Part shown: in pieces, positions 15,309-64,000 of the stretch | Layout of the letters: every line of letters starts with the position of its first letter | Position numbering within the stretch: the stretch's first letter is position 1 | The notes under the pieces: model-generated | What the model saw: only the letters and a program-made list of their open reading frames with translations | Database searches by the model: none | What the model was told of the DNA's origin: nothing | Program-made: the position numbers and the translations under genes | NCBI GenBank assembly: GCA_963969365.1 | Contig: OZ017763.1 | Coordinates: forward strand, 1-64,000 | DNA: 64,000 bases | Origin: Asterochloris sp. CNOR1 | Taxonomy: Eukaryota > Chlorophyta > Trebouxiophyceae > Trebouxiales > Trebouxiaceae | Reading direction: 5' to 3'

Positions 15309-18300
15309 ATGCAGTCAAGGAGCCCTGGGCTCCAACATGTCCCCAGCATGAGCCACATCCCTGAGCACGACAGCGCAGCAGCTGCGGCGCAGCAGCCCAC
15401 CCCGGAGCTTGGTGTCAATGGTGTTGTGGTGCAGCGTCTGGCAGAGACCGATCCTGCAGCTGAGTCTCAGGCCAAGCCCAAGGTCAGCGGCGGGGGCTGG
15501 GGCATGGTGCGGCCGGCCCTCAAACGGACAAAATCAGATGCCAGCAAGCAGCCAGACCCTGAGCTGGGCATGAAACCTGAGGGCAGCAATGGGTCAGCAG
15601 AGACCACCCCGCTGAAGAGGTCCTTGAGCAACAATGGGGGCTGGGGGGCGCTGAGGCGGCATTCAAGCTCCATGGAGGCCAATGAGGACTCAGGTGGGCA
15701 GCTTATTGCATCGGTGCACTTGCTGGGACATACAGGCAATCAATCCTTTTTTTGTGGGTGCTGGGAGGGCCGGCAAGGGTTCAAGCAGGCAGTCTTCTCC
15801 ATACAAGGGGCTTCCTGGGCGTGCAAGTCACAAGAGCAAGGCGTGGGGGCAGATGTTGGGATTGCCAAGCACGCGACAAGGGGCCTTATACATCCTGCAG
15901 TCTTCCCCGCAATTGCGTGAAGCCACAGGGAGGCTGCTCCACTCAAGGCAGTGACACGGCTTGTCAGGCAGAGATGGCCCAAAGCCCCGCCGCACATTGT
16001 GCTCACTTTTGTGGTTATGTGGTGCATGTTGGTGCCACAGGTGCAGTCACATGGTCTGAGGAACTGCACAGCAGCATATTGAGTCTTGAGGGCTGCCCTG
16101 CACTTCTTCAGGCCTTTGGCCACCCAGGTGGTGCAGGCAGTGACTTTGGGATATGTAGTGGCCTGTGCAGGCTGCTTCATTGTCAGCCAGTCCTGGTGCG
16201 AATAGTACTCAGCTGAGTGCCAAGGTCTGGAGCAGCTTCTTGCCCACTCTGCAGCGAGTCACCCAATCACCCTCTCTCAAAGTTGAGTGGCCATTACCAC
16301 CCTTGACGCTGACCCCTGCACCCATGCCTTGCCCTGCAGCAAACGGCCTGACCCGCAACAGCCTCTTTTCCATGGTCAAGGAAGTCACTGCCACCCGTGA
16401 CAAGGAGGAGTCTGTCAGGAGGGGCTTGGAGTACCAGAAGAGCCTGAAGCAGGCAAAGGAGTCCTCCAATGAGGCTCGCCAGAAGGCAGCCACGGCTCTG
16501 AGTGCCATGCCCTCCACCCAGGTGGGCTGCTCTCTGCACTGCAGCTCAGGAAGGTCCACCAGATGCAGTTGCACTGAAGGGAACAAACCCTGAACCAGAA
16601 GCAGTCCTCCTCCGGAGGGGCTTGCCAGAAGGCTGCATGGCTCTAAGCGCCTTCACACAACCAGGACACATCGAGCAGGGTTGCTCTGCATCAAGTCTAG
16701 CTAAGTGGTGTTCCGCAGATGTAGTTGGCTTCAGGGTGTTGTCCCCTGAAGCAGGAGTTGGACTGCCTTTATGTGCAGCTTGCCCAAGGCTGTCAGTGAG
16801 CGAGTGCCATGCCCTCGTACCAGGCAAGCATGGGTCCCTGTACATATTGGCAGCACCAATGGGCTGTGGAGCATGCTACCTGCACTGCGAGCCACCACTG
16901 CTCCAAACGTTGCGCATCTACGAGGGGCAGCTCTACCTAGGATAGGTGTCAAGATTCTCCAGTATAGCACGCTAGGGGAGGGGGGGCGGGGGGGCCGCAA
17001 TTAGTGCTTGTTTGCAGCTGCATATGGATATGTCAGCTCCAACACAGAGAGTGAGCCTGAGATGTGTTCTGAGGAGGGCACTCATGCAGGCAGCAGGGTC
17101 ATCCCTCAGCTATGCCTTTTAAGATGCAGATCATGTCAACTAAGAAACGATCAAGGGTGGAGGGCTCAGTGATGCCACGCTACATCATCCATCCCTACAG
17201 CCTTAATTACCACATGTGGCTGTGGCTGACCTGCGCAGCTGCCATTTGGACAGGTAAGACACTGGGATCTGATCTCATTGGTTGGCACCCTTGCTGTTGC
17301 TGCTGCCTTGACTGCTATCAATGATGGCTTCTTTCCACAGCAGGACTGTTGACATCGCGATGTGCTCTAGTCTCTCAGAACAGGGCTGTGGGAGTTGCTG
17401 TCAGGCTTCCCTTGCCCTTTGCTGCTTTTGGCTCCTAGTGCTGTACAATGAACATCGTCAGCTGATTCATAGCCCTCGCCTGCTGTCTGCTGCTCCATAT
17501 GCAGCAAAGTATGCAGCCACATGTGTGGGACTGTGGCATGCTTCCTGGAAGTAGCTGTGCTGGTGCCCATCACCGTCTGTCTGGCTGCAAATTGTATCTG
17601 CCATCTGCAGGGATTTACATCCCCTTTGCCATTGCCTTCCAGCGCGTCCCCGGCCTCTAGTGAGTTGGAGTTATCCAGTGCTGGAGGATGGATTGTGCTT
17701 GCCTGATGCAGCAAGCCAGGCAGAGGCTAGTCAAGTCCTGCGCAGCTTTGCCCTGATCTGCTTTTCTGCCACTGAAAGCTCCTATTTGGGCTCCTGTCAT
17801 GCCTTGTTGATCCTGGAATTGCTTCAATGTCTCTGCACTGCAGCCCCTATGATGATGGCAATGCCATCTATGGCTACATCTTCATGGTCATCTTTGGCAT
17901 CGATATGTGCATCAGCTTCCGTGTGGCCTACATTGAGAATGACATTCTTGTGACAGATGCTAAGGAGATTGCAAAGCGATACCTCAAGTGAGCGCCCTTT
18001 TCAGCTTTCTTTTGACTGGGTTCAATGTGACTGCACTGCGTTGCGTTGCCAAGCTATCTACTCAGTGGGTGGTCTGAATGCCGCCTGGCTGCACCATCCT
18101 ACCAGAAACATCAATTGGCAATGGGTGGTTACCATTGTCTGCCATGGTCTGCAGGCTCAGATTCATCGTGGACATGTTCGCCTGGTTTCCATTTGACTGG
18201 ATTGTCTTGGGAGGTGTGCTGCACACCTGCAATCACTGCAAGCCCTGTTGCGAGCCAAATTCCGTCTTGAGTTCTGCTGCACTGTCAGAAGCCAATGTTG

Positions 18301-21300
18301 CCTGGTTTCTGATGCCTGCAGCATTTGATGCCTCTGTCAGTGACAACTTCCATCGCTGGATTGGGCTGATTCAGTTGCTGCGCCTGGTGAGACTGCAATG
18401 TGGCCTGCCTCCACTCTAGTGCTGCTGCTTGGGGCAAGCTGGGGGACACAATGCAGAGAAAGGGTTTGGGGTGGTCCTGCCCCAAGACTGAGAGCCTTCT
18501 GCTTTGTCTTGAGATTTGCACTGCATGATAGAAACCTGACAGCGGTCTTGAGCATCCCTGCATTGCTGGCACTGCTCGCTGTGTGCTGCTGCCACCTCGG
18601 CAGAGCTGGTTTCTGAGGCTGTCAGATGCCTTTGCGTCTGCTGCAGCCTTTCCTGTGCACCTCCCAGCTGCAGTTGCTGCACGGAGCTGCCCACTGCTGC
18701 TTCAGCTGACAACAGTATGACCCCATGTGCCTACTTTGCCTGCAGCTCCGGCTGTATATCATCACGGCTAATGCTCACTGGAATGTTACAGCCTGCTGAC
18801 CTTGTGAAACTCTGCCGCCTGCAGCTGCAGTGCTGCACACACCAGATTGCTGACAGCCTGCTGAGCATGTGTATCTTGCCTGCCTGCAGCTGCGGCTGTA
18901 TCGTATCATGGTCCTGTTCAAGGGGCTGGAGCTCAAGGTCAGCATCAGCCTGATGTGGGTCACGCTGACGAGGAACTTTACGGTGAGCTCCTGAGCTGGA
19001 ATTTGTGTGTGCCTGCCACAGGCTGAGCTCGACACCCCGCAGGAGCCTGCAGTAGGGAGGCGCCCCCTCCAGAACCCACAGGCAGCTGCTGTACAGCATG
19101 CATTTGCAGAAGCCGCCATGCAGACAGGCACCCAAAGACAGCCAAGAGCCAGGGGTGACAGCTCATGCTGCAGGTGGCCCTGTTCAAGCCCTCTTCCCAC
19201 TATCACATCTGTTTAGTCTGGACACTGCTGTACACACCTCGCAATGGGCCGTGATGATGCTGAAGAAGGCCGTTTGAGAAGATTGCATGTCCCCATGCTG
19301 CAGGTGGCCTTCTTCATCTGTCACTTTGCCGCCTGCATATTCTACTTCATTGCGCGGCAGTATGGCTTCAGTGACACCACCTGGATTGGTGCTAACGCTG
19401 CTGAAGTGCTGGATGGCAAGAGCACTTTTCTCAGATGTGAGTGCCCTGCCCACCTGGTTACCGGTCTATCCTCCCTTGTGTTTAGGGCTGCCACAGCTAG
19501 GTCTGGCATGCAATATCTTCTGCCTGAAGCATCTGGTCATTGGCAGCAAAGGGGCTGACAATCATCAAGTCCACCGGGACGCTGCATTGCATCACAGCTA
19601 GTGTCATCTGCTTCCTTGTGGGGCTGACAGCGCTGTACCAACAAGTCTGCCAGTACATCTGCCCACTACAGCGACAGACTTGCAGCTGTCTCTCGCCTAT
19701 ACTGTGGTGTGCTTGACCGGGGCATGCGTGGCCTGGGGAAGTGCTGGTAGTCTTCAGGCGCTCCTGCACAGCACGTCGCCCCCCACATTCTCAGCCGCCT
19801 GCTGAACAAGCCGCCTGCTGAAAACTCCGCCGGAGTTTGCAGTTGTGTGGCCTTCCAACTCATGTCCTAATTGAAGGCATGGGGCCTGCAGACCTCTTAG
19901 GGCACCAGTGATGCCCCCTTCAAGGTTGTTGGCTGCAGCCCAGGAGCTTCGACATTTGCATGGCTTGCAGACATCTGGCACTATCTGTATCTGGCAATCA
20001 GTTGCCTTGCTTCATGCTGGACATTGTCAAGTATGGCCTGCAGACATTTGGGCCTTCTGATGGGCCACCAACAACTAAAAATACATGTGCAATTTGAGCA
20101 GTGAGCTAGGTGTGCTTGAGGACAACTGGGCCACCTGTCAACCTTTCAGCCTCTGCCACTGTGTAGTACCCTTGGATTATCATTTACCTTGCATTCATCG
20201 CTGTGTGCTTGCAGATATCTGGGCATACTACTGGGCCATCATCACCTTTGCCACAGTGGGCTACGGTGACCTGCATGCTTACAATGAGGTTGAGGCAGCC
20301 TTCATCATCATCTTTGTCTTCCTCAACATTGTGATCAATGCCTGGATTGTGGGTGAGTTCCTTGTTCCCTTAGATCCTCTTGTTATGGCTTGTGCATTGT
20401 CCGCACTGTCAAAAGATTTTGAGATTGCAATATGCCAAAAAATGCCCATCATGCTGGGTTACAGCAGGCAGCTGACTGCATGCTGTGCTGGTTGTGCAAG
20501 TCTTTGTCATCCGCAAATCGATGACTATGCCTGTGTGGTGGGTGGTTGCCTTCAAATCCTGCCTGCTTCTGTGTTTTTCAACTGGGCAGCCTGCCATCTG
20601 ATAGACCTATTGGCTCATTGGTCGGTTGAGGCCATTGCTATCCACAAATGTAGGAGATCAACATAGTGCCGTCGGCATACTGCTTTCAGTTCCGTGTGCT
20701 GAGTGCTGCTGGCAGGCTCTGCCTCATCCAACCCAGCAGACCTTCAACTGACTGTGAGCAGTCTGTTATTATAGCTGTACATCTGTGCTATTTGTCAGGC
20801 CACGAGGGATCCAACTGGCGCTGCATTTGTCTCAGGGCTGCAGAATTTGGCAAAGTGTGCAGCCTTGAGCGGCTGAGCTCCACTGTACTTTGACACGCCT
20901 TACAGGCCTGACATAAGGAAATGTGAATGTGACGCAGCAGGGCAGTGGCTGCTGGCTGGGTGTTGCACCCTGCATGCCTGCAGGAGTTGCAGACCTGGGC
21001 TCAGCCAAGAAGGCCTTCAAGGCATCTGTGGCTGCCCACAGCAGGCATGCAGAGGCTGATAACAACCCAAGAGACAGAGGCAACATTGAACCAGGCTCAT
21101 CTGCCTGCAGGTACCATCACATTGTTGATCATCCGGCACGATGAGCGGACGGGCAGGTACCGGTCACAGAGCGGGATTCTGCAGCACTACACCAGGATGA
21201 ACCAGCTGCCTGAGGTGAGCTGATCTCAAAGGGTAAATGGGTCCTCTAGGGTGGCCAGATCTACCCAGAAACGGTTTTGTATCTGAGTGCCTGAAAGTCC

Positions 21301-24300: not shown

Positions 24301-27300
24301 CAGAGGAGGCTGTGCGGGTGGGCCTGCTGTTGCCTGCAGAACAGCTAATCAGATTCCTGACTCTCGTGCCAGACAAGGTCACGAATGGGTGGTTCCTGCC
24401 ATCTCTGTCGCTTGCATGCCAGCATGTGACAGCAGACATGCAAATGCCAGCTGCGGGAACCTTGAGTGTATGCAGGCATCCGTGGGCTGTTGCTTTGGCT
24501 CCCAAGCATCACAAAACCTGCTGAGAAGGGCTTGATAGAATCGAGTGCCCCAGCAGTCGTCCTGGCTGTGTGCAAGGCAGTGCTGTTACACACCTGGTAC
24601 GCCAAAGCAGGCAGCAGCAGCACTGCTACCCTGCTGCTTTGCTGTGCACAGTGGCACAGAGAAGGCTCAGGATGCCATGAAATGTCACAGGGCCAGGCAC
24701 ATGTGTAGAGCTGCAGCCTGACCTTGGTGTTACACTCTCTTCCATGCCTTTCATCATTAGACTGCTGCGCAGCAAACAGACACACATCTCTTGTGAGCGC
24801 CAGTGCTTCACACCTGCTGTGTGCATGCCTGCAGGCCTGTGAGAATGAGGGTCTGGATCAAGACCAGCTCATTGTGACTGGAAAAGGTGGGGACTTGGTC
24901 TATGGCAGCGCAGAAGCTGTGGAAACCGGTGAGTCGTGGCCACCATGCTGGCAATGAGAGAGGAAGCTAAGTGGCCTGCAAGAAGAGGTGCCGGCTTGGC
25001 AACCCTGCCATCTGCAGAAGTTGAAAAGTGCACACTGAGTCATCTGTGCCAACAGGTTGTGTCTTGCTCAATGTATCTCTGGCGCAGCAAATGCTAGCTA
25101 GTATGGCCTCAAATAGCGCCTGCTGCTGCACCCCTGCTCAGGCTTCTCTGCTGCACTTGGGCTTATGCTGCTGTAAGTTTGCAAATGATGGGCATTCACT
25201 GAATGCCCTCTCCCAGCTGAGCCTTGCGCTTACCTTCTCGCCTGCTGCTGCTGCAGCACGCAGGGCGGTCAAGGCACCGCCAGTCTCGCCGTTCGCTAAT
25301 GGAGCCACCAATGGGGACGACACAGCCATGGGTGGGACCCGGGCGCTGAAAAGAATGAGCATCACCCAGCAGCAGGTGAGCACAACAAAAAAGTTGTGCA
25401 TGCCTTCAGCGGCAGATGCACTGTGAAAGGACATTCAGCCCTGATCTGGGCAGCATGACTGAGTTGCTGAATCCCACACAGCAGCAGGTAAGCACAAGGC
25501 ATATCGCTGTCACTCAGATTCAGTTTAGGCTTGATGTCAAGCCTTACGCTTTCCAAGAGTGCCCTGTGCAGCCACCTCCGCACACCCTTCTGGCACCACC
25601 TATGGCAGTAAATTCATCTTGCCTTCTGCTGCTTGGCATCTTGGATGGAGCCTGGCTGCCACAACAGGCTGCGGCACCAGCATGCAACCTCAGTTTCTGC
25701 CATGCCGAGTGTCCTGACAAGCTGAGGCATTGGCTTGCAGTCCATGCTTTGCTGACCTAGCCCTGGGATCGCAGGGCCATGCTGCTGATGCAGATTGGTC
25801 AGCAGGACACATGAAGGCAAGCTGCTGACCCTGCGGCTGCAAGCAAGAGCCACTTTGCACCGGCACATGGTGGCGAGCAACTGTCTGTTGCCAGTCGGCT
25901 GGCCATCACTACAGATCCTACTCGAGGTCTAGCCTTGACTTGCTCCTGCTGGTGGAGGACTGTCCCAGCCTGCGCTGACTGCATGCACCTCTTCACGCTC
26001 TTCTGTAGCCAGGCACAGGAATCCTGCCACGCTGGTGCTGCAGGCGCGTCGTCACCTGGCATTCGTGTCAGCCAGCACACTGCTTGTGCCGGCCAGGCAA
26101 GAATCGTTGGCCTGGCTGACAGGCTCCTGCTGGTGCAGGCACGTGCCAACTTGGAGCGTGTGCGCAACCTGGTGACTCAGCACACAGCCAAGCACGATGA
26201 GGATCGGACCACCACCTTCCTGTATGCGGCCACGCGAGGGGATGTGGCGCTCATTCGACAGGTTTGTTCCTCTGGGAGGTTGTAGTTCTGTGAGCTGACT
26301 GGCAGGGTTCTAGCCCTGCTGCTTTTCCTGACAGCAGGAGTTGGCCCCTGCTGGCTGCCGTGCTGATTCCAGTGATTGGTGCATATGCGCAGCCACCCAC
26401 GCAGCACCAGGCAAAAACCATCCCATGCTGGCTGCCGTGCCCTCAGCCTGCATGCTCATCTTGACGTCTCCCGCTGGCCCCTCACTCTAAGCTCCCAGCC
26501 AAATGATGCCTTGCTCCGACAGACTGCCTGCCACTGCCTGCAGATGCTGCAGCAGGGCTTCCAGCCCAACCAGGCAGACTATGACGGCAGGTGAGAAGCT
26601 TGTAGCCTGGTCTGCAGAGGGCTGCCTGCAGGCACAGCTGCCATGCTATCAGCTCCACACGGCTCAGCCCCTCTGGGAGGCATGTTGTGGAATGCAGCCA
26701 CTGTCGCCCTGCCTGCTCTGCCTGCTGCTAGGCTCACTGTCTGAAGCATCCTCAGACTTAGCCACACGTCACTGTGCTGCGTCAGGACAGCCCTGCACCT
26801 GGCCGCATTGCCTCAACACTGCCTCATGTAATGTTGCAGGACGGCCCTGCACCTGGCGGCAGTCAAGGGGAACCTGGAAGTCATCCAGGTGCTGGCCAAC
26901 GCAGTGCAGCAGACCCCTGGGGCCACTCTATCCCCTCCTGACGCTGCCAAGAACACTCCCCTGTCTGAGGCCTGCACCTGGGCTCAGGACAAGGCTCTGG
27001 ACCTGCTCAAGCTGCTGGGCGCCGAGTGAGTGCTGTCTTGATGTTTTATGTGAATCTCAGAGCCCAGGATGCCCCACTCCACAGGCAGACTGCACAGTGC
27101 AAGCTGAGTCTGAAGCACCAGGCTACATCCTGCGGCGGCTGTGGGGCTGCTAGAAAGCTCCTGCTACGCTTGGGGTCATACCAAGGCACTGGGTTCCCTG
27201 CAGCAGCTGAGTGCCATGTTGGCATCCACTGCTCTCGGCCTACAGCTTAGCAGGGCGTAACGGTGTCTAGCATGTATCCTGCAGTTGTGGCAGCAATCTG

Positions 27301-28819: not shown

Positions 28820-29134
28820 GACACACCATAGCTCCATAGGCAGGATGAGCAATACCTTGATGCAGGCCGCCAAGTGCGGTCCCAGTCGTTTTCACATGTG
28901 TTGTGAGTTGACAACAGTTTGGAAATGTTGTCACCTCACACCCCTTCTGCATTTGCATAGATGCATCACAATAAACCTCAAAGCTGATGGCTTGCTGTAC
29001 CTCCGTCGTGAGGCTCCCCATACTCATGACACACTGCTTTATCCTTGTAGATCGTCCTTCAGCAGAGGATGTGTGCCTCGCATATATTGCTGCTTTTCCG
29101 CTAGGTCTTGCTTTTTGTTTTTGCTAGGTTCTGT
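28820..29134. other. Tail-to-tail intergenic spacer
   Basis: About 315 bp separates the stop codons of the channel gene (plus) and the acyltransferase gene (minus), so it must hold both 3' UTRs. I see no further gene in it. Confidence 0.6.
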
Positions 29135-48308: not shown

Positions 48309-49581
48309 TCAGTCCTGGTCTCTGCCCAGCTCCTTGGCAAGGTTATTATATGGGTACTCTCGGGGTGCCTGCAACATGTGCATGGCAGATCAGCAACCAC
48401 AGTTTCGGTTTGCAGAGCAGAGGTCGTGCCGGCACCAGGTGGCAGCCTTCGTGAGCTCGCAGTGAAGTGCAACAAACAGACAGCCTGAATGAGTGCACTA
48501 CCACCTAGTGTGCAGCGAAAATTCGTCTGACACACATGGAAACAAGGCAACTCACAAAGGGGACGCTTGCAGCCTTGTTGTTCAGCCTTGCCAGCATGCC
48601 AATGCCTGCAAAAACGCCAAATCCGCCTGCCAGCCAGCCCAGGGCCTCCCACTGCAGCGCAGAGGGTGCAAGACATGAGTCTTGGACAAAATTGACAGAG
48701 CACAGATATTGTCAGCTGGGTCGGCAGCCCCCATCGCAGAATTTTCAAGCTGACAGTCAGTCTGGCCGAGTCACAGTATGAAGCACGCAGGCACTGTGCA
48801 GGCTGCTTGCCTTGCCTGATGCAGACATTTCAAGCACACAACAAGCTCAAAGCACCTTTGAGGGCCCCTCCTTGCTCACAGGCTCAAAGCCACCCTCAAC
48901 ACTACTGTATAGGCGGTGTGCAGGCTGCTCTAATGCGCAGCAGGCTAGCCTTACCAGCTCAAACCCCAGACAGTACTCTGTGCACCCCTTCAACCTTGCT
49001 GGCTAGAGGGCAAGAACCAAAGCAGCTGTCCTTAACGCTTGCTGCAGGCCCTGATCTTGGGCACCTCACCTTGCTGACCAGCTCAAAGCGGTCCAGGCAG
49101 TACTCGGGGTATGCGGACCCATCGTCCCACAGCAGCTCATCCTCCTCCGGGAGCTGCAGGACAGCAATGGGCAACGTCATTGATCAAATTAGCAGCCATC
49201 ATATGGCCTAAAACTGGCAGATGGCACTGCCTGGCACCAAGCCAGCAAGCTGTGAATGTTAGCGATCCTCGCTGCCCGTGCTGCCTGCGAATGCTTGGTG
49301 GGATGATTGACAGCTGCGGTCCAGGGCAAATGCATTCCATGGCCATTGGCAGGTGCCAGCGCAGAAATCTTCTGGACCACAACATTGCGCTCTTTGTCAA
49401 GACAAGCCTGCACAAGTATTGCACAAGGACAAACATTCAGATGGAAAAGCAATCTCACCGGCCTGTTTGGTGGCCTGCCGAGTGCCACTGGGCCTCCACC
49501 TCCACTCCTAGCTGGCAGCATACCGTGAGGCGCCATCACTCTCCTGGCCAGGCCCTGCATGGCTTTGCTGCGCAGAGCCAT
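48309..49581 (-). CDS. NDUFB8: Mitochondrial complex I subunit NDUFB8/ASHI
   Basis: Exons on the minus strand: 49581-49459, 49153-49070, 48651-48556, 48368-48309. All joins are phase 0, giving 120 residues, close to the plant homologue (about 125). An N-terminal presequence rich in Arg, Ala and Gly (MALRSKAMQGLARRV...) is followed by the family signature DELLWDDGSAYPEYCLDR. The single membrane helix is WEALGWLAGGFGVFAGIGML at about 70-89. The C-terminal motif is PREYPYNNLAKELG. The protein is an accessory subunit of the membrane arm of NADH:ubiquinone oxidoreductase in the inner mitochondrial membrane. The start ATG at 49581 is preferred over the in-frame ATG at 49560 because it gives the longer presequence. 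The gene is divergent to EF-Ts with 143 bp between start codons. Confidence 0.9.
48837..48988 (-). repeat. Ghosts of NDUFB8 exon 2 end
   Basis: Plus-strand ACCAGCTCAAACCCCAGACA then GTACTC at 48952 repeats ACCAGCTCAAAGCGGTCCAG then GCAGTACTC at 49077, the end of exon 2. A weaker third copy (AAGCTCAAAGCAC) is near 48842. Offsets are about 124 and 110 bp. Confidence 0.65.
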
Positions 49582-49724: not shown

Positions 49725-52700
49725 ATGCCTGCCATGCCTGCCAGAGCACTGGTTCCAACCCTGATCCCCCAGCTCCAGATCATCAGAGGCCTGGCTGCTG
49801 CCTCCAGCAAGGCAGATCAGCTTGCAGCCGTCAAGGCTCTTCGGGAACGCAGTGGAGCCCCCATCTCGGATGTGAAAGGGGCCCTACAGGAATGCAGCTG
49901 GGATCCAGGTGCATCTGATGCATCTTGACGCCAAAACAGCCTGCATAGACTTCACGTGAACAAATGGTAAACAGTGATTGTGGCCGCTCTGCAGAGCAGG
50001 CCTTTACAGCCCTCAGGAAGAGAGGACTAGCAGCTGCCACCAAGAAGGTGCGAGCACGCTGCGTTTTGGACGTTTTCCACATGGTGTCTGCTGTGAACTG
50101 CAAGTGGACCTCATCCACATCCCCCACTCACAGCAGCATGTTGGTTGTGTGCAGGCATCCAGGCATGCAGCAGAGGGGCTCGTAGGGGTGGCAGCCAGAG
50201 ATTGTGATGCAGTACTAGTGGAGGCAAGCAGCCTGTTTCCTGTTCACAAGGCTGTCAGATCATTTTCGTGTCAGGGAGCGACAGGCCCACCAGCAAAGCA
50301 TAGCAGAGTGGCTTACAGGGCCAAACATAGCAAGGCCTGAACCTGCTCGCATTCCTGCTGTGGCATACCCCTCGGTGGGGGGCTGAGGTTTGTGGGATGG
50401 CAGCTGCAGAGCAGGATCCACAACTCTCTGACCGGGTGGGGTCTCCGTCACGGTTGCTGAGATGCCTGCCTGGCAGGACTCTGCAAGCTGCACCTCTGTC
50501 AGCCCTGAGCTTGCTGTATGGGTGACCGGTGAGGGTGACCGGTGAGGCTGATGCTGCTGCAGGTGAACAGTGAGACTGACTTTGCAGCCCGCGATCACCA
50601 GTTCATGCATGTTGTGCGGCGAGTGGCAGAGGCGGCCATGCGCAGCAGCGTGGGGCAGGGACCAGGTGAGGATTTGACCCTGCCTAGGGCTATTGTCCAG
50701 AGGCATGAAGATTCCACTAAAGTGCAGAGGCCATCGGCCTGTGGTAAGCCTTGTGCGTGTGGAACGTCATAACACAAATGAAGAGCGCCTGTGTCTGGCG
50801 AACACTTCCTTTGCAGGGATGTAGAGAGCCAAGAAAGTATGAGTGCGTGTTCATGAGCAGGGTGAAAAGAATTCAGCCTGGGAACCTACACCACCGTTGC
50901 TGCTCAACCTCCCGTCACACCCAACGATGCATCGCTGCCTATCTGCTTGCAGACTGGCCTGACACAGCAGCCTGCGCAGCGCTGCGCTGCCGCTGGAGTT
51001 AGTAAACGCAGGCTCTGCCCCCGCACAGTGTCAGCAGAATTGCTGTAACGTCTGTGAGCCATCCTCCCGTCATCGCGTGCACTTCTGTGTGCAGGCACAA
51101 GCTCAATGCTGGTGGACGTGATCTCTGCAGAGCAGCTCAGCGAGGGAGGCAGGTCAGGGAACACCTCTGTACAGTGCAGTTGGCGCATGAAGGCTTCTGG
51201 CTGTACCTGCCTGCTGCAGTTGGCGCGTGCTTCACTGCTGAACACCCCTGCACGCATGGTGGCCGTTTTCTGGACTGTTGAACACCCCTGCACCTGAGAA
51301 AGGCCTGCATACGTGGTTGCTGCCAGCCTGGCGCCCTTGCTACCTTGTCCATGTGACCAGATGCTGCTTGTGCCCCCTGCAGGGTTGCGGAGGCCATCAG
51401 CGATATTGGGGGAGTAATCCGCGAGAACATCAGGCTGAGGCGAGCTGTGAGGTGGGAATGTGATATCGGCAGGCACATGTCTGTGAGGCAGAATTGACCA
51501 GCTGTGTGCTGCTGACTGGTAGCCTCTGCTTCGTATGTGTTGGGGGCAGAAGGTACGCACAAATGCCCGTCCTGGGAGAGGTATGCTACTCAAGGCTTCA
51601 GCCGAAGCAGTAAGCACGGCCCTGGCTCAGGCAGGGAACTGCAGATTGATGTGTCTGGGATGTTCAAAGCTGACGTGCCAGGGCCGCCCCCTGCGGGGCA
51701 TGCGCTGATGCCGAGTCTGCTCAAACTGGCTGCTTGTCTACAACACATCTACATTGCCCATGGGCATGATGCACTCATCAGCCTGCCGGCCGCCTTCTGG
51801 CACATGCCAGGAGTCTTGAGTGCAGCTTTCTGAGGCACACCCCTCATATTGATGTCTACTGGCTGCTGACTGTCCCTAGCGCATGTTAGCAGTCCTGAGC
51901 TCAGCTTGCTGAGGGAGATCTCCCCACCCTGCCTGGATGCCTGCAGGGTGCAGGCTGGCAGCGGCATCATTGTGCTGGCTACCCGAAGTGCAAACCGCAA
52001 AGCTTTCACGTTCTCAGAGTGTCTGTGGTGCGCTGACTCTGCAGGTTGGGCTGCTGCCTGAGCTGCAGAGCCCTCTGCTGGCTGCTTTGCCTCTCGATTG
52101 AAAGGCGGCCGTTTTTGCCAAGGTGCTCATCAGCGTTCACCTGCAGGGTGCAGGCAGACCGAGGAGTGGTGGGCTGCTATCTTCATTCATCGCCTAGCCC
52201 CGCCCTGGGCAAGGCAGCTGCAGCTGTGGCCCTGGAACCTGTCGACAGCACAGATGCTGTGGAGGGCAGCCATATCCAGAAGGCTCAGGTGTGGCACAAG
52301 CACTGCAGTTGTCTGCACTTGTGTTTTGCCATGGCTGCCATCAGCCTCCTCAATTGCTGCTCCAGTCTGGACCAATGATAGCTCCCTCCTGTCATGGCCT
52401 GCAGGATCTTGCGCACAAGGTGGCCATGCACGCTGTAGCCATGAAGCCAGACTTCATGGACGCTGCCGCCGTGTCCCCCCAAGCTCTTGAAGGTGCGAGG
52501 TGAACTGGCCTGCTGATGAGTAAGCGTGGGGCAATGGCTGGCTTCCTGCCGGCAGCCAACTGCCTACAGCCCCCATTCAGGGCACCACAGGCGATAGACC
52601 CCTTGAAGGTGCACTTGAAACAGGCACAGCCACCATGCATGCACTGGGAGATCTTGGTCCATGTACTACCAGCCGGTAAACGATGGCCTCAGGCTATCTG

Positions 52701-54341: not shown

Positions 54342-57300
54342 TCACTGGATGACATCTGACAGGGAGAAGGTGTAGGTTGAGGCTTTGGTGGGCGTGCTGC
54401 GCGGCCCACAGGCTGACTCCAGCTCAGCAAGGGTGAGCTCATGCTCTGCAGGGTGTAGATGTCTTGTCAGTACAAGCCACAATGTAACACGCCATGTGCA
54501 GGCATGATGCGGAGCCCACATGGCGACTCCAGCTCAGCCAGAGGGAGCCCATGCCCTGCAGGGCAATGGTGGTGGTGAGCTGAAGCCTGTGTAAAGATTT
54601 CATCAGAATCCTTGACCTCAGCCAGAGTAGGACATGCTTGGCAGGCCAGGTGGCACGTGTGCAGGGTCTTGCCTACATACTGCCATGTGCTGTCAGCCAG
54701 CCACATGCGTGGTATGGTGCCTGGTACACCCTGTTAGACACCAGGTCAAGTTTGCATTGGAAGAGTCTTACTGACTCGGCGGACTCAGCACCACAACCGC
54801 CATGTTGTGACCAAACATAGGCAGATGCACTAGGTCATGGGGAGATCCTTGAAGCATCCGCTCAATGCAGCAAGCACACCTCTGCAGCAAGCAGATGTGC
54901 TGGGTCGCAGGCAGGCCCCTGCTGCAGTGCCTGGTGGCAACACATGCCGCCATGCAGCAGTCTGTGGGCCAGTACAGGGGACCCACCCTGGTGCAGGCAG
55001 ACGCGCTGGGTCACAGGTAGGGTGTGGTCCTGGTGCAAGGGCACCACTGCATAGGGGCTGTAGGCAGCTCCAGGGCTGAACAGGACCTCCATGCGGAAGC
55101 GCTCAGGGCTGTCCACAGGCACCCTGCAGACAAGAGCAGACGGCCACGGTGAGGCCATGATGAGCAGATGTTCTGAAGCTGTGAGACCCTGCAGGATGGT
55201 TCCGCAGCCACCCTGCAGACAAAAGCAGAAGAATGATGAAGCCAAGATGAGCGGAAGTTTCGAAGCTGTGAGACCCTGCAAGGGCTTCTTTCAAATGTGA
55301 GGTGTATGGCAACTTTGAGACACAATTGCATTGAGCATAACCTGCATTGGCCGGTCCAAGAGCAGACATGCTTGGAGCTGTCAACTGGCGCTCTGCATGG
55401 CAGCACTGAAGCTGTTTGTGCTGTGCAGGATGGATAGCAACAGGTGACTGGTCCAAAACGGCTGCCGGAACTGTCCGCACCGGCTTGGCAGGGGACACAT
55501 TGAGGATGAGAGTCGTGCAGTGCACCCTCAGCAGTACAGCGCCATGCTGATAGAAAAAAGGGCACCCTGCGAGGTAGGCCACCAATAGATGAATTACTCA
55601 GTTCAGAGCATGTGGCACCTCCAGGGGCTCTTGTCAAGTACAATGCAGCAGCAAGGCATACTCGCAGGGCCTGACGGTTTCCCCGCGTGATCCCAGCTGG
55701 TGCCATGTGCAACTGCACAGAGCAGAGGCGGTCTCTGTATCAGGTTAGCCAGAGCAGTAGTGGCCAAGCGCTGGGGCTGGCTGGAGCGCAGCTGCTCTGC
55801 TCATGCGGCCGTCGTGCAGGTGCTGCACGCTCACCTCTTGTTTTCAAACATCCTGAAAACCAGGTGGGTCATGTAGTCCAGCTCTGTTGCATGTTTCAGA
55901 AGATCCTCAGCCTCAGGGCTGACCAGAGGCTCCCGCACAGCAGTCCCATCCTCGCCTGCAGCAACAGATGGAATCTGGTGTGGCATGGACCAAAGCGGGC
56001 AACACTGCAAGGTGTGCACTCCTGCTGTGCCATGCCTGGCTGCATCAAGGCACTCTGTGATGGCAGTGCGTCAGCTGCAATCAGGGGCTCCTTGCACAGC
56101 ACTCTGGTCCCCGCCTGAGCAGCAATTGGGGTCTGATTGGGGATCAGCAGAGTTGTGCACTTCGGCTTTGCCATGCTGCGCTGCAGCAGGGCACAAACAG
56201 CATCTTGGCAAGTTGGGGCTTTTAAAGTGCTGCCAGAACACCTTTAGCACCAATCTAAAGCCTAGGTAGAAGTGAGGAAGGCAGGCAGCGATGGTGCACT
56301 CCTGCTGTGCCATGCTTGGCAGTGATCAGAGGCACAAGCACAACACCCCTTCTCCTTCTCTGCAGAATTGAAGGGATGTCTGTCATGACAGCAAGCCAAA
56401 TGAACAGAGGTGCAGGATAAGCGCTTCCCCTCTTGGTCTCTGCAGCAGATCTGGAGCTTAGGCATCATGCAAGTCAAGCTGAGCCTCAGCGCTGACCAGA
56501 GCCTCCGTCACAGCAGAAGGAGACTCATGCACACCACTCTTGCAGGCAACAGTGCACGCTGCTGCCACCTTTGGAGAGGCAGAAGCGCAGCACCTTCATC
56601 AGAGAGTCCACGCAAAAGTCTTGAGGCGAAGTTTGTGCATGATCTGGGCAGAACGCACAGATATAGTAACAGATAACAGGGTAAGCTTGCCCAGGTGGCA
56701 GAAGCACAGCATGTTGACCAGCGACTCATGCACGTCAACTGTAGTGAAGTGGAGGTACGTGCACCACCTGGGCCAACACGAACATCTGTGCCACCAAAGA
56801 TCAGGCTCAAGAAGCGCAGCACATTGTCCAGCAAGGTCACATGCGCCTCCAAAGCGGGCTGGATGCACATGCATGATCTGGCCTAGAATGCGCAACCAAG
56901 TTACCATGGTCAGACAATTACCAAGACACTCACCCAGGTGGCAGAAGCGCAGCACATTGATCAGGGAGTGCACATGTGACTCCGAGGTGAAGTAGATGCG
57001 CGTGCGCACATGGCGCAGGGGGGAGTTTATGTCCTTGGCATAGGTGGGACACAAGCGGTGCAGCGTCTCGCGGTCGTGCTCATCTGTCTCCTCCTCTGCA
57101 CCAGGAGCCTCCTCACTGCCCAACACCTCGCCTGCAGTGTGGGGGCAAGGATTCCTGGACCTCTGGCCTCCTCTTGTTCAACAGAGCCCCTCGCTGCTGC
57201 CCAAGGCCTTGCCTGCAGTGCCAAGCAATGGCCTGTTCCACGAGTAGAGCAGTAGGCGTTGCACCTTGTCTGCTGCTTCCTACAAGGGCTTCTTTGCTGC

Positions 57301-60300
57301 CCGATACTTGACCTGCAGTAGAGTATCCAGGATACAAGTTGAGTGTGAGGACCCTTGACCTGAACTTTTTGGCGTCACCCACAAGGCAGAAGTGGCCAGC
57401 CTGTAGCTGCTGTTATGTCAGCATCCTGAACTCCCTGCCTGCACTCTCAGCAGCTTCCTAAAGCAGACTCAGCCTTGAAGCCACCTGACTGCCCTAAGAT
57501 TGTCTTGCTGTCATCAGGGCCATCACTGCACCAACAAGGCTGCCAGGTCCGTCTGTGCATACCACAGATGCACACAGAACATTGTTCCCTTACCGCGCGC
57601 GCACAAGGTGGGGCTGCTCCCAGCTAGGGGCGCCTGCTTCACAGGGGGCTCTGCCAGGCCAGGGCCCTCAGAGTCCACCTGACCAGCTGACAAAGCTGTG
57701 TCAAGGGCAGCCCTTTGCACACAGCAGACCATGCCCAAAGACAGTCAGACCCACCTGACTTGCGAGACAGTGGGCTGCTCCCATCCAAGGAGGCCTGCCT
57801 CCCGCCGGGGGAGCCCACGCCATCAAAGGAGGCCAGGACCTTGGTGGCCTGCTCCTCCACAGTCATGCCAGCAAACCTGTCGATCTCATCAAAGTCATTC
57901 TCCATCTCCAGGCCCAGGCTGCCCTGCAGGGGACAGATGTGCAGATTGACTAAGTGGCCTCCACTGCCTTGATGCCCACGTATTGCAAGCCAGCCACATC
58001 TGGCACATCACCATCCATAAAGCCCTGACTGACCCCACAATCTGACTTGATTCAGCTCACAACTATCATCCCGTGTGTTGACCAGAATGGCTGAAGGCAG
58101 TCCCTACCCCTGACCACTCATCTCTGGTGGTCACTCTCATCTCTTTTCACCTCAGACAAGAAGAGAGCCCAGCGTTGCTACCAGCTGACGACAGCGACCC
58201 ATTGGCTGCTCATCATGCCAAAGAGTAATGGATTGACCGCACACCCGACACAGATATTCTCACCGCCGTCTGGATGCTCTCGTCCCGCATGTTGGCTAGG
58301 TCAGCCAGCAGCTTCCCCATCAGCGCACTGCAGATCTTGCTGCCGATGCGCAGCTTCTGCTGGTCGTCTATGCCGTACTCGTTTGGGATCACCGCGTCTG
58401 CCAGCACCTTGGCCGTCTGCCGGCAAAAGGGAGCAGAGCTGAGTGAGCTCCCAGAGAGGTGCCATTTTAGGAGGGCAACTGGGCAGCCAGCATATTCCAA
58501 GGCAAGCCCATGGCCAATGATGTGGGACAACACAAATAGGACAGTGGGTCGGCAGTGTGCCTGGTGCTCCTGACAGCCATCAGAGATGATGTCGCACTAA
58601 CCAACCACTGCCTGTGGAGGTGCCAATGCAACCACCCCAGACCACCTCCAGTGGTTTGTCTGATCTGATAAACTCTTGCTGAACTAGACAGTGTGTGCCT
58701 CACCATGTACAACTCCTGGATGTCCAGCCCCAGCTCTGAGTTGTGGATGGCATCGTACTTGGCACTGTCATAGATATCAGGCACCTGGAGAAGATGGCAT
58801 TTCTGGCTGAATCAGTAACAGGGACAACATGGCGCTGGGTGCTCACAATCAGCTGAGAGGCCACCAGCCCTGTGACAGATGGCTCTGTTGCAGCATGTCA
58901 CATATAGAATGGACTTGTGGGTAGAAAGTGTCCCCGGAATTGCCAATATACTACAAACAAACATGCATCTGGGCAGTGCGCAGTGCCAGTTGTTGGCAAG
59001 GCATCACATTTTAGTGATCTACACCCTTCTGCTGCAGCAAACAATTGTGTGATCAGTCGCCAAATGCAATACCATGGCTTCCACAAGGGCTGTGTCTGTC
59101 ACAAAACAACAACAACATACTGTCAAGTGACAGATGAGCGCCGAACCCTACCTTGCTGATGTCAAACTGGCGCTTCTTCTCGTTGTGGAAGGCCTTGAGC
59201 AGCTTACGCCAGCGGTCAAACATCAGCAGCAGGCGCTCCCCCCCGCAGGGCTTCCCCTCCTGCAGTGACGGGCAGATCATGAGCCAATCAAAAACCCTTC
59301 CTTACGTTAGGGCTGCGCAGCTGCCAGCCTTCCAGCTGCCAAGCCAGCCCTTGCAGTGACTTCATGAAAGTGACAGTCGTGAAAGCATGGCTAGCTACTA
59401 TCTGAATGCAACTGGTGGGATTGAGCAGATGAGCACCAAGAAGCCACTTGTAGCACAGCATGGTTCTTCAATGCACTGCAGCTAGGCAGGCTTCAGGTTA
59501 ACTCAAATATGCCGACCCATATACAGGACTGCATGTGCATGCTACTCAGCTCTCCTGCTCAGGAAACATCTGGTCGTTCAGCCGTTGGTGACACTCACTG
59601 CTGCAGCTCATCTCGGCTGCCCTTGTTTGCGACATGGACCTCAGGGTGCTGCAGGTTGGGTCCCAGACACAAAAAGCACCTGTTGACTCCCTAGGAGCCC
59701 GCACATACCCCAGTCAAAGTCACTTGATTACTTGATTCTGCGCCACTGTGCTGTAGACCTCGTCTCCATAGTGATTGCCTACCTGGCCCAGTTGTGACCC
59801 ACCTGCTTGCCACACAGGTGTGGCATCTTTTCCACACAGCTGCGCAGTACAAGTGATTCACCTCGACTGCCCACTCCTGTGGCGCCTGCGTAAGTGCACT
59901 GTAGGCTTTGGAGATTTCGCCGTTCTTGTCTACCTTCTCCTCCAGGCACTTCTGTCGAAGCTGCTCTACTAGCACCTGCACAGATGAGGACTGTGTTTAT
60001 TGAGAACCCTGGACATTGCCAAGCCCATTGGCCCGCACCTGCTGCAGCTCCTGCAGAGCCACAGGCTCATGTCTTGGGAGCAGCAGGCAGCAGCTGCACC
60101 GCCAGAGTTACCAAACCTGCAAACTTCAGTGTTATCGCCAGCAGCTGGGCTGGAGGGCAGCGCAAGCAATCATGCTGCAGCTGTCAAGCAGCACCTGCAC
60201 AGGCAGGCACCATGGCTTCCAGCAGCACCCGTCTGGCTGTGGGTGCATAGCAAATAGCCCATCTGACACCTCCAGGCCCTTCTGCCACTTGGACAGGCAT

Positions 60301-63300
60301 CTCAGTCCACAAGAGCGAAGTCAGCTAAACAGCTGTGCCGAGCCTGTAAAGGTGCTGAGAACCCAGCACAAGGTCCCTGCAGGAGCGGCTGCTTCCTGCA
60401 GCATCATATATGGGATGAGGATGGCTCATGCGCAGTGCTCAGCACAAGTTACCAGGATTCCACCTGCTGTGCAGCGCGCCTGCGGACGCAAGGACTAGGG
60501 CTGCAGGCCCCCCTGGAACAAGCAGGCGTGTCCCTGCCTAAATTAGATTGCAGGCTCCTGCCTCTGCAAGCAGCCCGCTTGTTTTTGCTGTGCTGGGTAA
60601 GAGTACCCTCGCCCACTGACGCAACTAGAAAGCTAGATCAGGTGATGGGACCTCTTGGGCTGCGTGTGACTCATGTGCCCACGCGCTGCCAGAAGCACAC
60701 GCTCACAACGCGCATTCACACCTTGATGTGCTGGGTCAGCTTGCGGAGCAGAGACAGGGGGTTGCTTGGCATGGGCCAGATCTTGGGGCGCTCCCGTGTG
60801 TCTCCATCGCTGGTGGCGCGGCGACTCGAAGGGTGACTCATCTCAGCCCCGCTGCGGTACCCACTGCTCGCAATCTGCTCAAACATGCTGGTGCGGCTGC
60901 CCAGGCGGCTGGGTGCCTCGTTCAGCGCCGCTGCAGGCAATGCAGCAGGCCAGGCTCAGCTTAGCCCAATGCGCTTAGCAGCCTGGCCTGTATAGCTGCC
61001 CAGGCGGGACGGGACGGTGAGGGCCGTGTAAGGCGCCACTGCAGGCAGCACTGGGGGGCCAGGCAAGGCTCAACAGGGCATCGAAATTAATTCAGGGCTG
61101 CGACAGTGTGCAGAGAGCCTCGTCCAGGCCCTGCTGCAAGCAGCACAGGGGCAAGACACTGCTCAGCAAAGGCTGCGTGCACAGCTGCAGCATGCTGCGC
61201 GATGGCCCTGGGTGATTGCAGGCTGGCGCATAGGCGACAAACATGGAACCTTCAGACATGTTCAACGCTGAGTGGGCGTCTGTGCCAGTGCAGCCTCAGT
61301 CTCTGCGGCATAAGTCTCTTCAAGGGAAGGGGCAGGCATGGCTGGGCTCACCTTCGACAGTGCTGACGCCCGCAGATCTTTGGGGGGAGGACAGTGCATG
61401 CCCTGCAAATGCAGGCAGACAGCAGGCTTTAAAGCTGCCGCCCTATAGTAAGCATGGCAGCTGTGCATGTCCTGAGACCTGCGTGAGATGTTTTGCATTC
61501 CTGGGTCGCCTTGTCAGTGCAACCGAACTCCAGGCCAGCGTACATAGGCTGCCCCTGCTGAAAGTGCATTTGGTGCTACGCACCAAGAAACCCCTATTCT
61601 CAAGTGGGGCTGCAGTGTGGAATCTGACACCATGCCCAGAGGGCAGGCATTGCCACGATATAGCCCTGACCCTGATGTTTTCTGCAAGCAGGCATGCAGT
61701 CAGGCCACAGCATGCTTTGAATGCAACAGAACAGATGTTGCTAGGGCTGGTCCCACCAGCCTTACTGCAGCTCAGTAACAGTGGCTAGCCTGCCTTCAGC
61801 GCCCACCTCAGGTCCTGATGGCCTGTGTGCACGTCCTTCAGGCAGGTCAGTCCTGCCCCAAGTCGTGCGCTTACAGCAGGCAACATGCAAAGGGGCAGGG
61901 CACAGTGCTGGGACCTCACCCTTGAGGGCAGCGCTTTTCTGCAGATGCAAGGTCACTGGGAACGCAGGAAGCAGCTCTGTCCAAGTAGTTGCACGATTGT
62001 AACCCGACTGCACTGGGAATGAGCACCTGGCCGGCCCAGTCTGCTTCTTGCTGTCAGCCCACAGGTGATACTGACTCAGTAAACATGAGAACACATTGTG
62101 CTGTGCACGAGGCAGCCTCCAGGTCTGCCGGCAAGAGGGTGGGACGGCGGGCCAAGAGTTGCCTGCACCCCCTTGCCTGCACCCCTCAGGATGGGGAGAC
62201 TGCATTGGGGGTGCTCTGTTGGCGGACAGTGCAGCCTCAGCCCTCAGCCCATGCTCAGGGTTCTGGCAGAAGCCAGGCTGCACCGCCTGTCCGGCTCATG
62301 TCCATCCCCAAAGCAGAGCTCTGCGGCCCACCTTCAGGCTTGGGGGCCTGCGTGGGAGAGGGCGGCGGGGATGGCAGCGGAGTGACCATGGGCGGCTCCT
62401 GGAAGGCCGATGCCTTCCTCTCCTTGTCCCATGTCATCTGGGAGTACAGCTCGCTCTTGGCCAGCTGGATGTCCTCACTGGCGCCCTTGCCAAAGGCGTC
62501 TAGCATGCCAGCATCCTTCTTGACAAGACTGCATATTGGGGATGGACAGATCAGGGCTCCAGGTGATGCAAGCAGGCATTGCGGCCAAGGGCCACATAGT
62601 GCCCCCTACAGTCCAGCTTGCCTGCAATGCCGTTCAGCTGACCAAGAGCAGCTGCAGGCCCCCTCCATACAGACTTCAAGAAACATTTCTGAACCAAGCA
62701 GGCCTATACTATGAGCACCCAGACAGCCCCAAGGGACAAGGGGCTGGCAGTTGAAGGCTGGGCGCACCCCATCATGTGCAGCATGGCCAGCTGCACCTGA
62801 CAAGCATGCCGTCAGAATGTCCCTCAAGGGCGATTGGGCCAAGCTGCTGCCGAATTTGCAGCTGCCCATGGGTGCACCTTCACCTAAAACACTCTTTAAA
62901 GCAACACCTGAGCATACCTGACAAGGATGGGCGTCAGGGACGTCCCCTCAAGGTCCAGCAGGCCCTGCGTGAAGGCTGCAGCCGAGGTCTGCACTCGCCC
63001 CTCATCGCTGGAATAGATCTTGAGGTCGTGACGGTACGTGCTGTGCAGGCGCAGCAGGCCGTTGCCGTGGGGCCCATACTCGGGGTACATCACTGCACGA
63101 AAGAGCTTGCCCAAGTCCTCGGCCTGCAGGGCAATGCATGGAAATTGGGAGTGCTCAAGTCGCTACCCAACGGGCTAGACAGACCTTAGGGTCGGTGCAG
63201 GGAGGGTGTCTCTGAGGCCTGAATAGGGACGATATTCTTTGCCAGTGTTGGCGAGCACACTGGCAAGCATGAACGCCCCAGGGAGAGGCATCGAAGGGCA

Positions 63301-64000
63301 GTGAGCATTGGAACGCCTGTTGCTGGTCAAGGGGCTTGGCTGCCCTGAGGCTGAAGATCACATGTGGTGCCAACCAAGGTGCTACAGCACTGCTTGAGAT
63401 GCGATGCACTCGCCTCCTGCCAGCACACATCAGCCACCGTTACTCAAACGGGCAGGTGTTGAGCATTCCAGATGCCAATGTGCAGCCAGGGACATGTGCT
63501 GGCCCAACCTCAAGCTGGCACACCTGCTGCCTTGTTAGCACAAGTCAGCATGACGCCATACATCACAGATAGCAGCGCCGTCACTAGCGCGCATGAAGCA
63601 ACAGACTGGTGCCACAGAGGCGCTAGATATGCTGCTTGCAAACAGCCCTGGGTGAGCACGGCAACCTTTCAAATGGCACCTCTCTGGGCTAGGCCAAAGT
63701 CCAAGCACCTGCTGCCTGCCAGCATTGACCAGCACGCCGCCAAGCCTCATGATGAGCATCGCATTTGCCACCCTCAAGAGGGCTGCACCTGTTGCATGCT
63801 GGCACCAGTCTGCGAGGGACGGGGATCAGCAACCTTCCACCTGGCATCAATATGCCATACCAAAAGCTATGCACCTGCTGCCGACCGGCATGGGTCAGCA
63901 CGCCGCCATGCTTCAGTATGAGCAGCGCCTCCACTACTCTGGGCTGCTCATCTGATCCCTCCGCTGGCTGGGTCCACTTGAGCGGCTTCAGCTGCACTTT
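54342..64000 (-). CDS. VIP1: PPIP5K/VIP1 inositol pyrophosphate kinase/phosphatase, C-terminal part
   Basis: The gene runs leftward from beyond the window edge. Visible exons: 64000-63875 (cut), 63123-62918, 62528-62284, 61402-61352, 60930-60722, 59975-59862, 59259-59152, 58784-58704, 58416-58264, 57923-57755, 57131-56934, 55955-55835, 55123-54987, 54445-54342. They sum to exactly 674 codons, stop included. This is the histidine-acid-phosphatase-like domain of VIP1/VIH/PPIP5K enzymes, which make and remove diphosphoinositol phosphates in the cytosol. Diagnostic motifs: [41 protein letters not shown] then [119 protein letters not shown]. The N-terminal ATP-grasp kinase domain must lie to the right of 64000. 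Several introns carry decayed exon copies. Confidence 0.95.
54500..54572 (-). repeat. Ghost of PPIP5K last-exon acceptor
   Basis: Plus-strand CGACTCCAGCTCAGCCAGAG then GGAGCCCATGCCCTGCAGGG repeats the last-exon start and acceptor at 54412 (TGACTCCAGCTCAGCAAGGG then TGAGCTCATGCTCTGCAGGG). Offset 112 bp into the preceding intron. The CTGCAG acceptor is retained. Confidence 0.85.
55120..55285 (-). repeat. 89-bp tandem duplication at a PPIP5K splice acceptor
   Basis: CACCCTGCAGACAAGAGCAG at 55120 recurs as CACCCTGCAGACAAAAGCAG at 55209. Both copies end in AAGCTGTGAGACCCTGCA. The first copy begins at the real acceptor of the exon that starts at 55123. Confidence 0.85.
56079..56547 (-). repeat. 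Ghosts of the PPIP5K exon ending 55955-55835
   Basis: Plus-strand copies of the exon's 5' part (real: GACCAGAGGCTCCCGCACAG then CAG at 55921) occur at about 56080 (AATCAGGGGCTCCTTGCACA then GCA) and 56494 (GACCAGAGCCTCCGTCACAG then CAG). A separate block, GTGCACTCCTGCTGTGCCAT, recurs near 56014 and 56289, with a diverged form near 56156. Confidence 0.65.
56572..57010 (-). repeat. Four-copy array of one PPIP5K exon end (one intact, three decayed)
   Basis: The plus-strand core AGAAGCGCAGCA occurs at 56581, 56700 (one change), 56810 and 56943, so the spacing is 119, 110 and 133 bp. Each copy extends 75-85 bp. The 56943 copy is the functional exon end ([18 protein letters not shown]). The others read as [36 protein letters not shown] and, with a shift, [12 protein letters not shown]. 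All three decayed copies lie downstream in transcription, in the next intron. Confidence 0.9.
57107..57318 (-). repeat. Three-copy array of a PPIP5K exon acceptor
   Basis: Plus-strand CACTGCCCAACACCTCGCCT then GCAG (57113, real acceptor) recurs as GCTGCCCAAGGCCTTGCCTG then CAG (57195) and GCTGCCCGATACTTGACCTG then CAG (57297). Minus-strand readings are EVLGSEE, KALGSSE and QVSGSKE. Spacing is about 80 and 103 bp. Confidence 0.8.
57595..57665 (-). repeat. Ghost of the PPIP5K exon ending at 57755
   Basis: Plus-strand GGGGCTGCTCCCAGCTAGGG then GCGCCTGCTTC repeats GTGGGCTGCTCCCATCCAAG then GAGGCCTGCCTC (57768). This is the exon end with its donor side, offset about 155 bp downstream in the transcript. 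Confidence 0.7.
60985..61065 (-). repeat. Ghost of the PPIP5K exon starting at 60930
   Basis: Plus-strand AGCTGCCCAGGCGGGACGGG at 60995, then GCGCCACTGCAGGCA, repeats GGCTGCCCAGGCGGCTGGGT at 60895, then GCGCCGCTGCAGGCA. Exon start and acceptor are both included; offset about 100 bp, upstream in the transcript. Confidence 0.7.
63480..63900 (-). repeat. Three-copy array of a PPIP5K exon end (one intact, two decayed)
   Basis: CACCTGCTG, the real donor region at 63872, recurs at 63706 and 63521 (spacing 166 and 185 bp). Minus-strand readings are [17 protein letters not shown] (real), [17 protein letters not shown] (copy 1), and a degenerate copy 2 whose DNA still matches (GCGCTGCTATCTGTGATGTA). 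Confidence 0.9.

Follow-up and report, generated by a model that had tools for sequence, protein, structure and literature searches.

Short local duplications and decayed copies of exon edges in the green alga Asterochloris sp. CNOR1

Introns of the green alga Asterochloris sp. CNOR1 contain diverged direct copies of the exon ends beside them, and these copies, called ghosts here, look like one face of a general and already known repair-type mutation of DNA. The analysis covered a 64-kb window at the start of contig 18 (OZ017763.1) in assembly GCA_963969365.1 (56.4 Mb, 21 contigs), and 20 further 10-kb stretches (L002-L021) taken at round coordinates from 18 contigs. Unless stated otherwise, figures cover all 264 kb. 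It is likely that short stretches, mostly below 150 bp, are duplicated head to tail regardless of annotation, probably through error-prone break repair, and that duplications crossing a splice site leave slowly fading ghosts.

Local direct copies and their position at exon edges

Direct copies at short range are far more frequent than expected by chance. A banded Smith-Waterman self-comparison, in which a pair required a score of at least 20 and an offset of 25-700, found 172 direct pairs in 248,870 positions. These form 112 separate clusters, about one per 2.4 kb, and have a median offset of 134 bp and a median identity of 73%; two self-overlapping arrays (L005 5267-5935 and L011 4079-4421) were counted in the identity figures at their original identities. 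The same band displaced by 3000 gave 3 pairs in 185,870 positions, and displaced by 5000 it gave none in 143,870. Dinucleotide-shuffled sequence gave 1 pair in 248,870 positions, and the same comparison found no pair in 50 kb of E. coli. The pairs are thus direct, short in range and above chance (172 versus 0-3 in the controls), as local tandem duplication predicts. A separate blastn search of the window found 19 direct pairs with a score of at least 24 at offsets of 20-1000, none at 1000-32,000, and no inverted pairs. Tandem Repeats Finder (TRF) alone reveals little, with 16 rows in the window, one of which is the telomere. Local inverted pairs also seem to be in excess in the larger sample, with 32 in 244,300 positions at a score of at least 20 (overlapping blocks, some double-counted) versus one direct pair in shuffled sequence.

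Exon edges were taken from a self-training gene finder written for this analysis, which predicted 59 genes and 517 introns with a median length of 207 bp. The predicted acceptor is nearly uniform (TGCAG in 446 of the 517 introns); donors are more variable, with 469 GT and 47 GC. The gene finder fuses some neighbors, for example a protease and a Transferase-family gene in one model, and we suspect ghosts among the exons that it calls. Queries for the own-intron test were the edges of 231 confident exons among 576. They consisted of up to 60 bp of exon sequence, with intron sequence excluded, and were compared with introns of at least 120 bp at a score of at least 16. Targets in the own intron extended up to 400 bp, versus up to 300 bp in random introns.

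The side on which the copies lie is the one expected if tandem duplications crossed a splice site. About one tenth of the confident edges (30/318) had a match in their own adjoining intron on the expected side, while 1/318 had one on the wrong side (Fisher p 1.5e-8), and none of the 318 matched random introns or the reverse complement. For 5' edges there were 13/160 matches in the own upstream intron and 1/158 in the own downstream intron, and for 3' edges 17/158 downstream and 0/160 upstream. Looser exon filters gave 38/497 edges with a match in the own intron versus 1/497 in random introns, and lowering the score to at least 13 over all stretches gave 63/497 versus 7/497. The alignment runs across the exon edge in 55 of the 77 pairs that join exon and noncoding DNA. 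Duplication across an existing splice site is therefore supported as the origin of the copies.

A preliminary description of positions 15309..64000 of the window had claimed that introns hold diverged direct copies of adjacent exon ends, usually including the splice site and usually displaced by 90-210 bp, with copies of 3' ends downstream and copies of 5' starts upstream. The larger sample bears out the presence of the copies, their sides and their crossing of the splice site. The displacement also agrees for 14 of the 20 window edges with a score of at least 13, although a few of these 20 may be chance matches and one (4295-4416) lies outside that interval. The claimed range of divergence, from nearly identical to barely visible, was only partly found. 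Identity varies from 75 to 91% over 22-54 bp at the nine window edges with a score of at least 18, so that there is variation but no nearly identical copy among them.

Several other sources of the copies were rejected. Chance and shared composition are ruled out by the far-offset, shuffled, random-intron and E. coli controls. Duplication of whole exons as the main source would produce copies on the wrong side and pairs that join different introns; the former were found at 1/318 edges and the latter in none of the 172 pairs, versus 9.3 expected under random placement, showing that whole-exon copies are rare. Mobile introner-like copies would be expected to match random introns, and 0/318 edges did so, although a genome-wide copy search was not made. 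Repeat-induced hypermutation as the cause of the divergence is unsupported, since the ratio of transitions to transversions is 1.2 in the 17 pairs that are at least 85% identical, with no dominant class.

Unit size and the origin of the duplications

The duplicated units are mostly shorter than 150 bp, with a clear drop above this length, which is a new observation. A threshold-free count of excess identical 9-mer pairs by distance gave 5.9 per offset at 25-60 bp, 11.7 at 60-90 bp, 8.7 at 90-150 bp, 2.2 at 150-210 bp, 3.5 at 210-300 bp and 2.6 at 300-420 bp. Offsets of 60-150 bp were richer than those of 150-240 bp in 23 of 26 stretches and poorer in 3. The strongest noncoding pairs are head to tail: in the 22 with a score of at least 28, the median ratio of aligned length to offset is 1.11. 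Simulated strict tandems have a median ratio of 1.01 and rarely fall well below it.

Break repair could generate units of this kind. Nicks on opposite strands would form a staggered break, and filling in and joining its ends would make a short head-to-tail duplication anywhere in the genome. If the duplicated stretch spanned a splice site, splicing would continue at one copy of the site, and the second exon piece would become part of a lengthened intron, with an exon-edge ghost on the intron side. The ghost would then decay freely while the exon copy remained under selection. Such a pair would stay recognizable for about 1.7-2 times as long as one whose copies both decay, and exon edges would look special for this reason. 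The excess of copies, their short range and sidedness, their presence in every annotation class, the one-sided decay and the drop above 150 bp are observed, and we infer both the repair step and the neutrality of the ghosts from these patterns. Speculatively, a limit of about 150 bp could be due to nicks that fall within the DNA of a single nucleosome or to pieces of Okazaki size.

Replication errors, either mis-ligation of Okazaki flaps or slippage, might have made the duplications instead of break repair, which is possible but rather unlikely. The drop above 150 bp resembles the size of an Okazaki fragment or of one nucleosome, there is a further excess at offsets of 15-30 bp, and yeast FEN1 mutants have duplications of similar sizes. 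However, no observation here separates replication errors from break repair, and one clearly young array was found in the 264 kb. It begins at position 545 of L013, has three 68-bp copies that are about 96% identical, and includes a predicted donor. This array and the two in L005 and L011 are multi-copy local arrays with offsets of about 68-148 bp.

Only 6 of the 172 pairs are at least 90% identical, while a simple simulation with constant birth (single events, no arrays) expects about 18%. The scarcity of young pairs suggests that the present rate is slower than the past rate, as a sign and not as proof, and it makes the earlier proposal of a continuing process doubtful.

Exon edges and the rest of the genome

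The duplications are found in all classes of DNA, and the filter imposed by selection differs among the classes. Copies cover 7.4% of intergenic bases, 7.7% of exon bases and 9.3% of intron bases. Compared with random placement, there are 53 noncoding pairs (67.3 expected), 42 exon-exon pairs (42.3 expected) and 77 exon-noncoding pairs (62.4 expected). The strongest pair in the window, at 13581..14174, is intergenic and is an instance of this process where no exon is predicted. If both members of a pair are exonic, the offset is a multiple of three in 23 of 42 pairs (p 0.005); there is no such enrichment in exon-noncoding pairs (30/77) or noncoding pairs (15/53). The enrichment of in-frame offsets in exon-exon pairs alone indicates that duplication occurs everywhere and is filtered by selection in exons. 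Duplications within an exon survive mostly when they are in frame and duplications of a whole exon hardly survive, while those across an edge or in noncoding DNA survive at any length. Because these duplications are also present between genes and inside introns, the view that they are a phenomenon of exon edges as such was not upheld.

Exon edges nevertheless show more copies than other DNA, and most of this excess is explained by preservation. The preliminary description had made its association with exon edges depend on a comparison with noncoding DNA, and the outcome is mixed: edges score more often, largely through one-sided decay. With equal 200-bp targets, matches were found for 25/251 exon edges, 12/384 intron chunks and 10/317 intergenic chunks. 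At the same edges, the exon side matched in 22/207 cases and the intron flank in 10/207 (2.2-fold), and mid-intron chunks matched in 2/81. Mismatches between exon and ghost amount to 19%, 16% and 26% at codon positions 1, 2 and 3, suggesting that the ghost decays freely while the exon changes mainly at silent sites. In a simulation with the overall exon rate set at 0.19 of neutral from these figures, one-sided decay made pairs visible 1.71-fold longer, and 1.94-fold longer with a frozen exon. The exon side is thus more visible because its copy is held by selection, and the paired value of 2.2 is close to the simulated range.

Some of the evidence weighs against this account. Exon edges score 3.2 times as often as noncoding chunks (25/251 versus 22/701), and relative to random placement exon-noncoding pairs exceed noncoding pairs 1.57-fold when all pairs are counted and 2.34-fold with one pair per cluster. 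Among the most confident exons, the exon side matched in 9/83 cases and the intron flank in 3/83. The upper values, 3.2 and 2.34, exceed the prediction from one-sided decay, on small counts. Many pairs, above all those that involve exons, align over only part of their offset (median ratio 0.51 in the 77 exon-noncoding pairs), so that some spaced copies or later rearrangements are likely to be mixed in. The excess at offsets of 15-30 bp (11.8 per offset) means that there is no clean lower size limit, and most junctions are too decayed to reveal a repair pathway. Finally, the gene models are predictions from a self-trained finder that used the same 264 kb for training and tests.

Part of this evidence would also fit the idea that exon-intron boundaries are hot spots of duplication, through nicks, R-loops or nucleosome borders at exons, beyond any effect of preservation. 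In addition to the higher scores of edges and the enrichment with one pair per cluster, edge ghosts are concentrated at offsets of 90-145 bp (21/32), compared with 13/53 noncoding pairs (p 0.0002) or 10/29 with one pair per cluster (p 0.02). In contrast, the intron flanks, which lie at the same boundaries, are not clearly above mid-intron or intergenic DNA, and one-sided decay predicts most of the difference. Hot spots are therefore unlikely, although the data leave room for a modest extra rate at edges.

Of 32 ghosts, 29 have their edge at least 68 bp from the far end of the intron, in support of the earlier suggestion that duplications lengthen introns. We estimate that the length added by visible duplications is perhaps half of the 9.3% of intron bases covered by copies, as a lower bound. 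It is quite unlikely that much of the intron and intergenic DNA was made by duplication of units of up to about 150 bp, near the DNA of one nucleosome, in a process that acted most strongly in the past and favored edges, with intron length largely its record. Ghosts might also be kept for a function as alternative exons or splice regulators, and some retain TGCAG or GT at the edge position; this is very improbable, as the differences from the exon are too evenly spread over codon positions for a coding copy and copies cover intergenic DNA to a similar extent.

Creation of introns by tandem duplication of exon pieces that carry AGGT (the Rogers model) is hardly credible here and is largely refuted for recognizable ages. 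It predicts that the two ends of an intron match when shifted by exactly the intron's length. Both flanking exons were usable for 194 of the 517 predicted introns; none of these had such a match at a score of at least 16, and one did at a score of at least 14, versus 0/582 controls. Most ghost edges are also far from the opposite end of their intron, although two of the 32 are within 40 bp of it and a further one is exactly there. The last is in a predicted gene at L015 6545-6732 (minus strand), where the end of a 78-bp intron matches the end of the upstream exon when shifted by the length of that intron. This intron is possibly a single case of intron gain, in a predicted gene model; it was not among the best of the 194 tested introns, and the exon filter may have dropped it.

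In the ghosts, small tandem duplications are preserved as fossils that can be counted. Since exon edges serve as slowly decaying reference copies, ghosts could be used to date duplications and to measure intron growth without a sister genome, and the scarcity of units longer than 150 bp hints at the molecular step involved. Gene finders can mistake ghosts for exons, and repeats at splice borders need not signify intron insertion.

Loci in the window and comparison with known systems

The loci in the window with ghosts or related pairs are listed in Table 1. Ten sequences, pieces of eight window models, were compared with Pfam, and matches were found to Ion_trans, Ank, Peptidase_C1, Transferase, DUF4057, Macro, EF_TS and His_Phos_2, with Cyclin_N borderline. 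At E<=0.01 there was no Pfam match for an AP2-like piece (370 of 911 residues) or for the protein previously called NDUFB8. Ghosts had been reported in at least eight genes. They are clear in the K+ channel, DUF4057-like and PPIP5K-like genes and in the gene called NDUFB8. The macrodomain gene has one pair across an acceptor, and an exon-only query there found no match at a score of at least 11; the EF-Ts pair is weak and common to two exon starts. In the acyltransferase-like gene, all copies in the two local pairs are exonic in the predicted models, and the AP2 gene has one marginal match (13.0) outside the interval. The papain-like protease exon is an addition to the genes named before. In the K+ channel gene, both ghost pairs of exon 20215-20352 also score at least 20 across the splice site in the self-comparison. 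The matches of exon 26840-27025 are in sequence that encodes ankyrin repeats; they may stem instead from the repeat structure of the protein. The window is a chromosome end, with a telomere of 61 CCCTAAA copies at positions 1-430; this telomere type is known from plants and algae.

Table 1. Positions of ghosts and other local copies in the 64-kb window
Feature	Span	Strand	Copies	Offset (bp)	Match	Pfam or other
Exon 16340-16521, 3'-end ghost in downstream intron	16340..16651	+	16608-16651	145	35/45, score 22.5	
Exon 16340-16521, longer self-alignment crossing donor		+	16443-16635 / 16589-16792			
K+ channel exon 18890-18982, ghost of acceptor and exon start upstream	18654..18982	+	18654-18767 / 18803-18911	149	77/116	Ion_trans
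K+ channel exon 20215-20352, 5' and 3' ghosts	20046..20541	+	5' 20046-20076; 3' 20501-20541	171; 189	23/31; 30/42	
Exon 26840-27025 (ankyrin part of channel gene), start and end copies	26786..27215	+	start 26786-26807; end 27164-27215	54; 192	20/22; 34/52	Ank
Acyltransferase-like gene, two local direct pairs	30129..32213	-	30129-30194 / 30244-30318; 32045-32095 / 32162-32213	115; 117	51/75; 40/52	Transferase
Exon 36684-36860 (papain-like protease by residue count), 3'-end copy	36338..36860	-	36338-36371	364	28/34, score 22	Peptidase_C1
DUF4057-like exon 40610-40706, 3' ghost	40610..41054	+	41015-41054	353	30/40	DUF4057
DUF4057-like exon 41430-41570, 5' and 3' ghosts	41328..41770	+	5' 41328-41373; 3' 41740-41770	103; 209	37/47; 25/31	
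Macrodomain gene, pair across acceptor of exon 44007-44088	43865..44023	+	43865-43913 / 43975-44023	110	34/49, score 19	
Gene called NDUFB8, exon 49070-49180, 3' ghost	48950..49180	-	48950-48978	124	26/32, score 17.5	
EF-Ts gene, weak pair joining two exon starts (exons 51947-52027, 52147-52288)	51940..52164	+		200	21/25, score 17	EF_TS
PPIP5K-like gene, exons 54987-55123, 55835-55955, 56841-57131, 57755-57923	54882..57923	-				His_Phos_2 only
PPIP5K-like gene, ghosts		-	54882-54915, 56082-56114, 56636-56659, 57153-57212, 57611-57640		scores 14.5-20	
PPIP5K-like gene, 87-bp tandem		-	55112-55280			TRF
PPIP5K-like gene model (62797..64000 with the next row), exon 62918-63123, 3' ghost		-	62797-62840	121	35/47, score 15.5	
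PPIP5K-like gene model, exon 63875-64000 (up to window end), 3' ghost		-	63709-63762	166	43/54, score 32	
Intergenic head-to-tail duplication	13581..14174	.		291	258/304 (85% identical), score 199.5	

Tandem duplications made by repair are established (PMC8355091, PMC7407515). Small tandem duplications arise when the ends of staggered breaks are filled in before they are joined (Schimmel et al. 2021, PMC8355091). For insertions of 10-1000 bp in rice, nicks close to each other and end joining have been proposed as the source (Vaughn and Bennetzen 2014, as cited in PMC7407515 and PMC8355091). The duplications described by Schimmel et al. are likewise short and local, with lengths of tens to a few hundred bp, and are head to tail, as the strong noncoding pairs are here. 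Those found here differ in being decayed fossils of a single genome, with fewer units above 150 bp, and break repair is their presumed pathway. No earlier genome-wide pattern of exon-edge ghosts was described among the literature matches listed.

Vertebrate duplications attributed to repair are also closely linked, and some include splice sites and partial exons; in primates their intensity fell with time (Pace et al. 2009, PMC2671141). The pipeline described there excluded copies 50 bp or less apart, and it reported 4 partial exon/intron donors among 824. In Asterochloris, by contrast, the copies of strong noncoding pairs adjoin each other, and roughly one tenth of the tested exon edges are matched. 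Models of intron gain by tandem duplication likewise involve duplicated splice signals, while here existing introns were lengthened and no new intron is evident. Direct repeats of 4-30 bp at intron-exon borders, found by comparing intron borders, were read as insertion scars in the account of Rogers and Bendich (2025, PMC11782384). The copies described here are instead inside the intron; their length is tens of bp, and most are 60-200 bp from the exon edge that they resemble.

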